NCBI GenBank assembly: GCA_945906305.1
Contig: CAMDQT010000030.1
Coordinates: 1-39,198, forward strand
Source of the DNA: Ferrithrix thermotolerans DSM 19514
GTDB taxonomy: Bacteria > Actinomycetota > Acidimicrobiia > Acidimicrobiales > CAIXPF01
Direction: 5' to 3'
Length of the DNA stretch: 39,198 bases
A program made the position numbers and the translations under genes. The notes under the pieces were generated by a model. The model saw only the letters and a list, made by a program, of their open reading frames with translations, was not told where the DNA came from and made no database searches. This document shows, piece by piece, positions 3,995 to 33,118 of the stretch; position 1 is the first letter of the stretch; every line of letters begins with the position of its first letter.

Positions 3995-4075
3995 CCCACG
4001 ATTGGTAGCACGATCAGGGCGCCGGGCGGCGTATTCGACCCAGCTAGCCCGCCCCGGTGGCCTCGATGGGAGCGG

Positions 4076-4081
4076 TAGGGT
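4076..4081 (+). promoter_or_regulatory. -10 element of the M20 peptidase gene
   Basis: TAGGGT lies 5 nt before the ATG at 4087. This supports that start over the ATG 30 nt upstream (4057), which would lie inside or before the promoter. Confidence 0.45.
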
Positions 4082-4086
4082 GCGGT

Positions 4087-5457
4087 ATGGCCGGTGAACA
4101 CACTCAGGAAACGACCGAGCTGCTCTCGACGCTCATCCGCAATGCCTGTGTCAATGACGGTACGCCCGATTCGGGAAACGAGACCCGTAACTCGGACCTG
4201 TTGCGCGCCTTCCTCGAAGGCCCTGGCGTGGAGATCGAGGCGTACACGCCCCGACCGGGACGCGACAGCCTGATAGCCCGCATCGAGGGCAGCGACCCTG
4301 ACGCGCCGACGTTGTGCTTCATGGGCCATACCGATGTCGTGCCGGTGACGGCCGAAGGATGGACCGAGGACCCCTTCGGCGGCCTTGTCCTCGATGCCGA
4401 GGGTACCGATGGTCGGCCAATGAAGGAGGTGTGGGGTCGCGGCGCGATCGACATGCTCAACCTCACGTCGTCCATGGCCGTGGCCTTCAAGCAACTTGCC
4501 CGGTCGAACTGGAAGCCGAAGGGGACGCTGCTCTACTTCGGGGTGGGCGATGAAGAGGCCGGAGGCGTCTGGGGCGCCAAGTGGATGGTGGATCACCATT
4601 GGGACGCCCTTGTGGGCCGTAACGGCCGTCTGGACTACGTGTTGACCGAGATGGGTGGCTGGCTCCACAGTGGCGGCCGCAAAGTTGGCATCTGCATCGG
4701 CGAGAAGGGCATTGCCTGGCGACGTCTGCGGGTCAAGGGCACGCCCGGGCACGGTTCGATGCCGTATGGGACCGATAATGCCGTCGTGAAAGCGGCCGAG
4801 GTCGTGGCGAGGCTCGCTCGCTTCAAACCCGCCGCCAAGCTCGATGAGCTGTGGGCGGCGCGCATCACGACGAGCACGATGCCGGAGCACCTCAAAGCGG
4901 CGCTACTCGACCCCGCCCGCATCGAGGCCGCGCTCGGTGAGCTCACGCCGAGCTCCGCCAAGCACTTGCACGCCTGCACCCATACGACGATTTCGCCGAA
5001 CGTGGTGCACGGCGGGGTCAAGACGAACGTCATTCCCGATGTCGTGGAGATCGACGTCGACATCCGGACCCTGCCCGGCGTAACCGGCGGCGATGTCGAC
5101 GGCTACCTTCGGGAGGCGCTCGGCGAGCTTGCGGACCAGGTGGAGATCAGCGCCATCTTTAACGACGAGGCCAGCTCGAGTTCGACCCGTACTCCGCTGT
5201 GGGAGATACTCACGGCGCGAACACGCGTGGCCTATCCGCAAGCCGACCTGCTCCCGGAACTGATCGTGGGGGCGACGGACAGCCGCTTCTTCCGTGGCAA
5301 GGGCACCGTCGCATATGGGACCGGCCTGTTCGCCCCGTCGGTCAGCTTTGAACAGTTCGCCGGTCGGTTCCATGGCCATGACGAGCGCATCGACGTTGAG
5401 TCTCTCGGATTGTGCACCGACTACTGGCTCGGCATCGCCCAGGATCTGCTCGACTGA
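4087..5457 (+). CDS. M20/M25/M40 family metallopeptidase (di-zinc amidohydrolase)
   Basis: The family hydrolyses dipeptides or N-acyl amino acids with two zinc ions. The 456-residue protein shows the typical motifs in order: MGHTDVVPV near residue 79 (first zinc His and Asp), WGRGAIDM near 117 (bridging Asp), GVGDEEAGG near 153 (Glu-Glu with the general base), and a dimerisation (lid) region beginning at KGTPGHGSMPYG. A C-terminal His in RFHGHDERI completes the metal site. No signal peptide is seen, so it is cytoplasmic. The start at 4087 is preferred because of the TAGGGT hexamer; 4057 is the alternative. It has no operon partner, since the next gene follows after a regulatory-looking gap. 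The substrate cannot be told; succinyl-diaminopimelate desuccinylase and carboxypeptidase-like members share these motifs. Confidence 0.85.
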   Translation: MAGEHTQETTELLSTLIRNACVNDGTPDSGNETRNSDLLRAFLEGPGVEIEAYTPRPGRDSLIARIEGSDPDAPTLCFMGHTDVVPVTAEGWTEDPFGGLVLDAEGTDGRPMKEVWGRGAIDMLNLTSSMAVAFKQLARSNWKPKGTLLYFGVGDEEAGGVWGAKWMVDHHWDALVGRNGRLDYVLTEMGGWLHSGGRKVGICIGEKGIAWRRLRVKGTPGHGSMPYGTDNAVVKAAEVVARLARFKPAAKLDELWAARITTSTMPEHLKAALLDPARIEAALGELTPSSAKHLHACTHTTISPNVVHGGVKTNVIPDVVEIDVDIRTLPGVTGGDVDGYLREALGELADQVEISAIFNDEASSSSTRTPLWEILTARTRVAYPQADLLPELIVGATDSRFFRGKGTVAYGTGLFAPSVSFEQFAGRFHGHDERIDVESLGLCTDYWLGIAQDLLD

Positions 5458-5562: not shown

Positions 5563-5580
5563 CTGGGACCAAAGTCCCAG
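5563..5580. promoter_or_regulatory. DosR/DevR-box-like palindrome
   Basis: CTGGGAC-CAAA-GTCCCAG is a perfect 7-bp inverted repeat with a 4-nt centre. Its core GGGAC-N4-GTCCC has the same layout as the mycobacterial DosR (DevR) hypoxia operator core. It sits 12 nt before the GTG at 5593 and 63 nt before the ATG at 5644 of the downstream lipoprotein gene. No U-run follows, so it is not a standard terminator. The regulator is inferred by pattern only. Confidence 0.45.
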
Positions 5581-5592
5581 GACGATTGGTCG

Positions 5593-6405
5593 GTGGGACC
5601 GCTTAGACCGCTTCGTGTGGGCGGGCAAGGTAGGGCTATTCGAATGATTGTGGTGGCCGTAGCTGCCTTGGCGAGCTGTGGCTCGGTCGAGGTTGCTGCC
5701 GCCCCGCATCCCCGGCTGATCGACGGCCAAGCTGTCCCGACGGAGGCGATTCGCCACGATGGGGGCCCGGCCGACCCTGTAGCTCAAGCGCCGACGGTGC
5801 CTGGCGACAGCGTTGTTGGTGGCGCCTCGCTCATCAGCGAGCTCACCGTGCAACACGGGACCGCCCCGCCGTCCACGGCCGTCGTTCTGGCCACGACCAC
5901 CAACCTCCCGACCTCGATTCCAGCGGTGACCACGGCGGTCACGGAGGCCAACCAATCGCTCGGGCCGGGTGCGGGGACCCGAGCCGAAGTGCTGTCGATG
6001 ATCTCCTATCCTTGGCAGCAGACTCTGCCCGGGTGGACGATCGAATTTCTTCCTGGCCGGCCGGGCTATCTCGGCTACACGTGGATCCTCGAACGACGAA
6101 TTGAGATCTACGCCCGGGCCTCTCAGAGCGCCCATGAGCTGGCATTCACCCTCGCCCACGAGCTGGGACACGCCGTGGATGTCACCCTTTTCCACGACGC
6201 CGAGCGCGCCGCTTGGCTTGAAGCTCGGGGTCTGGTCAACGTGCCATGGTGGCCCGGTGGCGCACGGTCGGACTTCAGCAGCGGCTGTGGCGACTGGGCC
6301 GAAGCCTTTGCGGTCTGGCAGCTTGGCGGAACGAGCATGTCCGAGCTAGCGGGCCAGCCCGACAGAGGAGACCTCGCGCTGGTCGCTCAGCTGGTACAGG
6401 CGTAG
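5593..6405 (+). CDS. Predicted secreted or lipoprotein zinc metallopeptidase (HExxH)
   Basis: From the GTG at 5593 (270 residues) the N-terminus has four Arg within 17 residues, a hydrophobic stretch MIVVAVAAL and a lipobox LASC at 26-29, so it is probably a lipoprotein lipidated at Cys29. The GTG at 5617 also gives a usable signal; the ATG at 5644 leaves no charged n-region. A Thr/Ser/Ala/Pro-rich linker of about 90 residues follows. The C-terminal domain contains HELGH at 189-193, the gluzincin zinc motif, and GDWAEAFA with Glu237 as the likely third ligand. The fold resembles small extracellular zinc peptidases of actinobacteria, but the exact family and substrate are unknown. A DosR-like palindrome lies just upstream, suggesting regulated expression. 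Confidence 0.65.
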   Translation: MGPLRPLRVGGQGRAIRMIVVAVAALASCGSVEVAAAPHPRLIDGQAVPTEAIRHDGGPADPVAQAPTVPGDSVVGGASLISELTVQHGTAPPSTAVVLATTTNLPTSIPAVTTAVTEANQSLGPGAGTRAEVLSMISYPWQQTLPGWTIEFLPGRPGYLGYTWILERRIEIYARASQSAHELAFTLAHELGHAVDVTLFHDAERAAWLEARGLVNVPWWPGGARSDFSSGCGDWAEAFAVWQLGGTSMSELAGQPDRGDLALVAQLVQA

Positions 6406-32071: not shown

Positions 32072-33118
32072 TCAGCGTCTCGTGGGCACCGGTATCGGTG
32101 CTTGTGACAACACGTCAGCTACGACGCGTGAGGCGGTGTAGCCCTGCATGTGCGCCTCGGGCGTGAGCAGCAATCGGTGCGCCATGACTGGCTCCGCCAA
32201 GGCCTTCACGTCGTCGGGAATCACATAGTTACGGCCCGCCGCGGCAGCACGGGCCCGACAGACTCGCAGCATGGCCAACGTCGCTCGTGGTGAGAGGCCA
32301 ATCCACACCGAAGGGTGATGGCGCGACACGGTGGCAAGATCGACGAGATACTCCTTTATGGCGGGAGCCACATGCACGGAGTTGGCGGCGGCGATCATGG
32401 CTTCGACCTTGCGGGCGGACAGAACCGGCGTCATATTGGCCAGAGCATCGCCCCGACCGTGGGCCTCGAGCATGGCCAGCTCATCGGCGCGCCCCGGGTA
32501 ACCCATCGAGATGCGCATCAGGAACCGGTCGAGTTGCGAATCCGGTAGCGGGTAGGTCCCTTCGTGCTCCAACGGGTTCTGGGTGGCGATGACGAGGTGG
32601 GGGTGGGGGAGCGGGTGGGTGGTGCCATCCACGGTGACTTGCACTTCAGCCATGGCCTCGAGGAGGGCGGATTGGGTCTTGGGCGAGCCGCGGTTGATTT
32701 CGTCGGCGAGTACGACGGAGTTGAAAACGGGCCCCGGCCGGAAGGTGAAGGTCGAACTGACCCGTTCGAACACCGTGACGCCGACGACATCGGAGGGCAA
32801 CAGATCGGGGGTGAACTGGATCCGCCCGAACGAGCACTGGAGCGAGGTCGCCAGCGCCTTGGCCAGGGTGGTCTTACCGACCCCCGGGCGATCTTCGATC
32901 AGCACATGGCCCTGGGCGACGAGACTGAGCACCACGAGCTCGATGGCCGACGTCTTTCCTTGGATGGCCTGCTCAATGTTACGAACCGCCGCCGCGAATA
33001 GCTCGGCGAAGGCCTGGGCGTCCTTCGTGGATAGCTCTGGGGCTGTCGAGGTCGGCAGAGTTGGCAATGAGGCGGCATCGAGGGCCAACCCCGTGCCGTG
33101 CGGAGACTCCTGAGGCAA
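32072..33118 (-). CDS. MoxR family AAA+ ATPase
   Basis: This is a 348-residue ATPase. Walker A is EDRPGVGKTTLAKAL near 75-89, Walker B is VVLADEINRGSPKTQSALLEAM, sensor 1 is VIATQNPLEHEGTYPLPDSQLDRF, and a C-terminal lid domain ends the protein. The start is TTG 33118: AGGAG at 33129-33125 lies 6 nt upstream, and the length matches MoxR. The frame continues upstream to 33286 but would overlap the divergent ROK gene and its promoter. It leads the operon moxR-DUF58-tgpA and is expected to remodel envelope or surface proteins with its partners. An inverted repeat over its promoter suggests dedicated repression. Confidence 0.88.
   Translation of the reverse strand: MPQESPHGTGLALDAASLPTLPTSTAPELSTKDAQAFAELFAAAVRNIEQAIQGKTSAIELVVLSLVAQGHVLIEDRPGVGKTTLAKALATSLQCSFGRIQFTPDLLPSDVVGVTVFERVSSTFTFRPGPVFNSVVLADEINRGSPKTQSALLEAMAEVQVTVDGTTHPLPHPHLVIATQNPLEHEGTYPLPDSQLDRFLMRISMGYPGRADELAMLEAHGRGDALANMTPVLSARKVEAMIAAANSVHVAPAIKEYLVDLATVSRHHPSVWIGLSPRATLAMLRVCRARAAAAGRNYVIPDDVKALAEPVMAHRLLLTPEAHMQGYTASRVVADVLSQAPIPVPTRR

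Follow-up and report, generated by a model that had tools for sequence, protein, structure and literature searches.

The palindrome CTGGGAC-CAAA-GTCCCAG lies at positions 5563 to 5580 of the window, by which we mean the whole 39,198-nucleotide stretch of DNA analyzed from genome G000. Read from the sequence and assigned to neither strand, this proposed operator comprises two perfect 7-bp arms around a 4-bp spacer, with symmetry confined to the arms. It is intergenic. Upstream, an M20 peptidase gene on the plus strand (4057 to 5457; Pfam Peptidase_M20, E 5e-24) bounds the region with its stop at 5457, and downstream a gene encoding an HExxH lipoprotein occupies positions 5617 to 6405 of the same strand. 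The GTG start of the lipoprotein gene is kept in two congeners, and its product begins with an MGG...LASC lipobox that places the lipidation cysteine at Cys21. Synteny of the two genes, in this order, is conserved in the congeneric genomes G001 and G003. The 14-mer core of the palindrome, GGGACCAAAGTCCC (5565 to 5578, likewise unstranded), is centered 45 bp before GTG 5617. Between core and start codon, alignments revealed a segment conserved in G001 and G003, TAGACCGCT, which includes the plus-strand hexamer TAGACC (5604 to 5609) 7 nt before the start codon, a possible -10 element of a leaderless promoter. The original prediction of a DosR-like GGGAC-N4-GTCCC palindrome upstream of an exported HExxH lipoprotein gene was borne out by the sequence, and a regulatory role for the palindrome at this position is likely.

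The lipoprotein belongs to no Pfam family above cut-off. Its zinc motif HELGH (residues 181-185; 6157 to 6171, plus strand) has H181, E182, G184 and H185 invariant in eight aligned sequences. Equally invariant in this set is Glu229 of the sequence GDWAEAF (6301 to 6303, plus strand), a candidate third zinc ligand located within a predicted domain of about residues 119-262. In the predicted structural model, 119 of 262 residues have a pLDDT of at least 90, nearly all of them in the C-terminal domain. Searching with this model yielded no Foldseek match at E 0.001. A structure aligner returned Z scores of 9-10 to lethal-factor-type and Pro-Pro-endopeptidase (PPEP) chains, with PPEP rows at 8.6-9.5 and PPEP-2 at 9.5. 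We read these scores for the model as pointing to a shared zincin fold, and as fold only.

A paralogue of the window lipoprotein resides in the same genome (C20:60199-60729; L091:8200-8730), directly upstream of the gene for flagellin 2. This arrangement is kept in G001 and G003 (also L036 and L098), with a palindromic site before the paralogue. Another HExxH paralogue, on contig C218 of genome G005 (L033, L103), adjoins pilin- and prepilin-peptidase-like genes, named by reading, and is again found in a surface-appendage setting. An order-wide link between the HExxH lipoprotein family and flagellin was rejected (8/25 versus 20/74, P 0.62, 99 genomes).

Exact GGGACN4GTCCC occurs once in the window, where tolerance of up to one mismatch gave three sites versus 4.1 expected from shuffles. 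The 3.1-Mb genome holds six exact copies, with two matches to a reversed-pattern control, compared with about 12 copies expected at zero order for a G+C content of about 65.5%; copy number alone is therefore not above chance. Four congeneric genomes together contain 40 exact sites (G000, 6; G001, 12; G002, 11; G003, 11), which include orthologous pairs and are consequently non-independent. The genome scan proposed in the original prediction gave a divided result: the motif is not in excess, yet 23 of the 40 exact copies are intergenic versus 10.2% intergenic DNA overall, a count inflated by gene calls from a simple codon-usage script that trims starts. This script also called site L065 genic although its orthologue L077 is intergenic. 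Of N4 palindromes with 5-bp arms in a comparison set, 117 of 907 were intergenic, part of the surveyed DNA having been gathered because it carried the motif. Intergenic position, unlike copy number, is above chance.

Palindromes of this form recur at flagellar operons of the genus. The flagellar cluster of G000 (C20:25.4-61.1 kb) contains N4 palindromes with AGGAC arms three times and with GGGAC arms once, all of them intergenic. Of the three AGGAC-N4-GTCCT copies, the one at C20:26640 separates vanY from the csrA/flgN side, and those at 32664 and 60959 lie at flagellin 1 and HExxH-flagellin 2, respectively. Order-1 resampled intergenic DNA held a mean of 0.012 AGGAC/GGGAC palindromes versus the four seen in this cluster, a contrast to be read with the motility motif having been found post hoc, by inspecting the cluster itself; in 5 of 2000 runs, any single arm occurred three times. 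G001 has sites of this kind at vanY/csrA, flagellin 1 and flgB, and G003 has them at these positions plus HExxH-flagellin 2. Four operon heads in the cluster, namely flgB, flagellin 1, the vanY/csrA side, and the HExxH gene with flagellin 2, are preceded by palindromes with the consensus RGGACSATSGTCCY. Each of the four carries one in G000, G001 and G003, and at flgB a site is present in G002 as well. Family searches supplied the names Flagellin, FlgB, CsrA, FlgN and VanY and rejected a flgM identity for the vanY gene; fliE, fliF and the flgB of G002 were named by reading their sequences.

Matches to RGGACSATSGTCCY number 3 in G000, 4 in G001, 2 in G002 and 6 in G003, or 15 in total, with none for the reversed control. 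A position weight matrix (PWM) was trained on 11 sites, orthologous sites among them. The matrix then recovered two sites outside the training set, each with one arm mismatch, at places where they would be expected: AGGTCGATGGTCCT at flgB of G000 scored 17.9, and AGGACCGCGGTGCT at HExxH-fliC2 of G001 scored 12.5, a value that some genic 14-mers equal. The copy at the fliE-fliF junction of G000 (GGGACCTCGGTCCC at C20:37269, followed by TTCCATTTTTC) could be a terminator and was for this reason left out of training. Three longer gaps within the G000 cluster, on C20 near 48.4, 57.4 and 59.1 kb, were without GGACN4GTCC. The scan of DNA upstream of flagellin genes covered 30 loci, for some of which the start codon was a guess.

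The orthologous lipoprotein promoters of two congeners carry near-matches to the motility motif at the corresponding position. The sites, GGGACGAACGTCCT in G001 and GGGTCGATCGTCCT in G003, each differ from the motif by one mismatch and are centered 44 bp before the start codon. With 22 and 27 sites per genome, the chance that a particular 160-bp stretch holds a site differing at no more than one position is about 0.001 per species, the two species being non-independent. The core in the window has two mismatches, both in the spacer: against SATS, the window spacer CAAA has two, GAAC of G001 one and GATC of G003 none. RGGAC-N4-GTCCY is present in the lipoprotein promoters of G000 and G001, and with one mismatch in that of G003. 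By PWM, the window site scores 7.0, the weakest of the three orthologues and a score reached by 119 of 474,466 14-mers. At the more distant lipoprotein orthologue of G002, the fourth congener, no site was found. Alignment of the three species showed identity in 10 of 18 palindrome columns versus 43% overall, a modest excess. Given the close copies that precede flagellum genes in relatives, the palindrome is more likely to be part of a motility switch than a counterpart of the mycobacterial oxygen-starvation switch that it resembles.

Exact sites elsewhere in the genus adjoin flgB and a HAMP-domain chemoreceptor-like gene in G002, the fliE-fliF junction in G000, and a GGDEF diguanylate cyclase gene in G001 together with its orthologue in G003. 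With up to one mismatch to the motif, G000, G001, G002 and G003 have 16, 22, 27 and 27 sites, respectively (n = 92), compared with 8, 8, 12 and 5 for the control. Eleven of 30 classified sites were intergenic. The 30 were drawn from those of the 92 that lie in G000 and G003, with a minority of the G001 sites, and comprise only sites not described before, hence no flagellar ones. One such site is at a GGDEF-EAL gene of G003 (C62:48154), and the same locus in G000 has an exact site (C2:124121); another, beside an inositol-phosphatase-like gene named by reading its sequence, is common to G001 and G003. A few palindromes precede c-di-GMP enzyme genes, and several stand before genes unconnected with motility (PadR-like, glycogen and HEAT-repeat genes, some of them named by reading).

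Two of these further palindromes are themselves conserved. AGGAC-N4-GTCCT is found at C19:59442 of G000, C10:64653 of G001 and C113:19958 of G003, with spacers AATT, AAAT and ATTT, respectively, flanked by a divergent HEAT-repeat gene and by one without a clear family; its A+T-rich spacer is unlike that of flagellar sites. The sequence TGGGACCGGTGTCCCA lies 29 bp before a PadR-like gene, named by reading, in both G003 (L066:1999) and G001 (L076:1987), where it is possibly an operator of that gene's own.

Occurrence of the motif falls sharply beyond the genus, with RGGACSATSGTCCY present 3.75 times per genome within it versus 0.46 times elsewhere in the order (95 other genomes). Outside the genus, 11 matches versus 8 for the control were obtained in 24 flagellated genomes, and 33 versus 12 in 71 genomes without flagellin, the latter figures meaning that the reversed control understates background. 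Density was 0.46 per genome in both groups. Of the 44 non-genus sites, 26 were read and 22 of these proved genic, a result that led us to reject an order-wide spread of the motif. A copy adjoining a response-regulator gene in genome G022 was also set aside, as it lies inside a called reading frame. Thus, the tie between motif and flagella holds at genus level only. Three loci in different families (L141, L150 and L153, in genomes G086, G053 and G038) have the 14-mer inside very similar coding sequences that read as recombinase-like genes, possibly representing one mobile element.

A candidate regulator is encoded at G000:C27:19936-20607. This NarL-type response regulator is 90-93% identical in three other genomes of the genus, and its helix KTVKN keeps residues that we take to be the DNA contacts of DosR. 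Relatives at about 50% identity are widespread, including in genomes without flagellin. Upstream of the gene, GTCCY half-sites occur at -138, -112 and -106 in G000, G001 and G003, and in G005, a member of the same family, GGGACCGATGTCCC is accompanied by five half-sites in 60 bp. At least three half-sites were present in 53 of 6564 intergenic windows, and five in none. The pattern of upstream half-sites suggests that the response regulator may be autoregulated.

The genome also encodes a FliA/WhiG sigma factor. The flagellar sigma-28 (FliA/WhiG) promoter is given as TAAA / GCCGATAA in the accessible portion of PMC8325347. At flgB in three genomes and at vanY, GTCGATGA or GCCGATNN begins 1-3 bp after the palindrome and agrees with GCCGATAA at 6/8 positions, a level reached by 2.9% of random 13-mers. 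Agreement is 5/8 at flgB of G002 and at HExxH-fliC2, and 2 to 4 positions at fliC1, the csrA side and the lipoprotein sites of G001 and G003. In the window, GACGATTG follows the palindrome with 5/8 agreement, compared with 3/8 in G001 and 2/8 in G003. Given the elements that follow it at flgB and vanY, the palindrome there may occupy a sigma-28 promoter spacer, a placement that would suit repression. The distance between palindrome and start at the lipoprotein gene would suit activation.

The original prediction noted a likeness to the DosR/DevR box. That the palindrome is a true box of this type, placing the lipoprotein under a DosR-like regulator that responds to oxygen or nitric oxide, is a reading we regard as highly improbable. 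The stringent form of the mycobacterial DosR/DevR operator consensus is GGGACTTNNGNCCCT, as quoted in the available part of PMC6448022. In favor of such a box, the minus strand of the palindrome, GGGACTTTGGTCCC, matches GGGACTTNNGNCCC without mismatch within its 14-mer core, GGGACTTNNGNCCC being that consensus with the final T removed; in place of this T the window has A. The NarL-type regulator with its KTVKN helix also speaks for it. However, the window site is the sole one of this form among 284 loci examined (L006 and L007 being one place), and the orthologous sites in G001 and G003 misfit the DosR consensus. A search for a DosR orthologue in the genome recovered just two GerE proteins and no DosR. 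The canonical one is the response regulator, whose nearest solved relative is VraR (E 1e-38) with DevR/DosR seventh (5e-21); when its HTH alone was used, DevR was absent at E 1e-6. The other had no DosR model among its NCBIfam rows. In place of the NarL-type DosR homologue that the original prediction proposed to look for, the genome has a NarL-type response regulator nearer VraR than DevR. Boxes expected before universal stress protein genes did not materialize at the one such gene found, around which no GGGAC is paired with a half-site within one mismatch, and 16 kb of sequence contain no intergenic site within two mismatches. With no DosR orthologue found, no box at the universal-stress gene, and palindromes recurring across species before flagellar and c-di-GMP genes, the proposed link to redox, hypoxia or nitric-oxide signaling was not upheld. 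Membership in a DosR regulon was rejected on the orthologue and the universal-stress box despite the fit of the operator. GGGAC-N4-GTCCC alone does not justify calling a DosR box.

Two other explanations were weighed. The site may be the operator of another, local regulator that shares the GGAC half-site, in which case its flagellar resemblance would be coincidental for the lipoprotein gene. We find this doubtful: the two spacer mismatches of the window site agree with it, as do the PadR-like gene that has a GGGAC palindrome of its own in G001 and G003 (L066, L076) and the poor fit to GCCGATAA after the lipoprotein palindromes relative to flgB and vanY, but the orthologous sites in G001 and G003 stand one mismatch from the motility motif, and a paralogous gene within the flagellar cluster has a site before it. 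Quite unlikely, in our estimation, is that no protein binds and that the palindrome reflects chance or an RNA hairpin serving as a terminator or leader structure. In its favor are the G+C-rich 7-bp stem with a 4-nt loop, the lack of a genome-wide excess of the motif and the identity of the three orthologues at just 10/18 palindrome columns. Against it, no terminator-like site was found, and predicted folding of the region was no stronger than in shuffled sequence (z -0.12). Moreover, it is the sequence of the arms, beyond mere pairing, that recurs between loci and species.

Our preferred explanation is that the palindrome serves as operator within a motility regulon definable in the genus only, a reading to which we assign a probability of roughly 0.55. 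According to the proposed mechanism, a dimeric transcription factor would bind RGGAC-N4-GTCCY before flagellar operons, certain c-di-GMP enzyme genes and the window lipoprotein gene, and would switch these genes together. As candidate binder we put forward the conserved NarL-type response regulator. The lipoprotein, an HExxH protein with a Pro-Pro-endopeptidase-like predicted fold, might then remodel the cell surface as cells turn motile. A broader model, which we advance tentatively and consider less likely than not, is that motility in this genus has come under the control of one NarL-type master regulator whose half-site specificity, GGGAC, is DosR-like. Through one shared operator it would couple c-di-GMP enzymes and flagellar operons to two Pro-Pro-endopeptidase-like HExxH surface proteins, one beside flagellin and one in the window. 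The outcome would be a switch between swimming and attachment, comparable to the shedding of adhesins by PPEP-1 in Clostridioides difficile.

How Acidimicrobiia regulate their flagellar genes was described nowhere in the literature searched, nor in the available sections of a paper on actinobacterial flagella (PMC10746217). Likewise, no description of this operator was found in literature on DosR/GGGAC, Acidimicrobiia flagella, and LuxR-type regulators of actinobacterial flagella. With an operator defined and a regulator proposed, the motility programme of an uncultured lineage would become open to testing, and HExxH surface lipoproteins that form an orphan family would be tied to motility.

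Comparison with known systems places the proposed regulon among several partial likenesses. With the DosR/DevR operator it shares inverted GGGAC half-sites 4 bp apart and a suspected NarL-type regulator, and differs in that its recurring relatives precede flagellar and c-di-GMP genes and have a SATS spacer with first base A or G, in a genome where no DosR orthologue was found. A FliA/WhiG gene and the GTCGATGA/GCCGATNN elements after the palindrome at some flagellar sites recall sigma-28 promoters, whereas the palindrome itself is no part of that promoter consensus. TcrA of Actinoplanes missouriensis likewise offers a response regulator acting as global regulator in a flagellated actinobacterium, with a 4-bp gap in its box, nnGCA(A/C)CCG-n4-GCA(A/C)CCGn in the excerpt available of PMC12691653. 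That box is a direct repeat of a different sequence, GCAMCCG, in contrast to the inverted GGGAC repeat here, and membership in a TcrA regulon was rejected as the site is without it. PPEP-1 of C. difficile is made at low c-di-GMP and cleaves adhesins, as described in the accessible part of PMC6447587. The window lipoprotein resembles it as an HExxH peptidase whose predicted domain superposes on PPEP-type folds and in putative co-regulation with motility, and departs from it in an identity of 11-15%, the lack of a Foldseek match at the threshold used and a predicted lipoprotein anchor; we treat the comparison as a working analogy, not as membership. Finally, in flagellinolysin a metallopeptidase is inserted in flagellin itself (PMC5595980, available part), whereas here the HExxH gene is separate and lies directly upstream of the flagellin gene.
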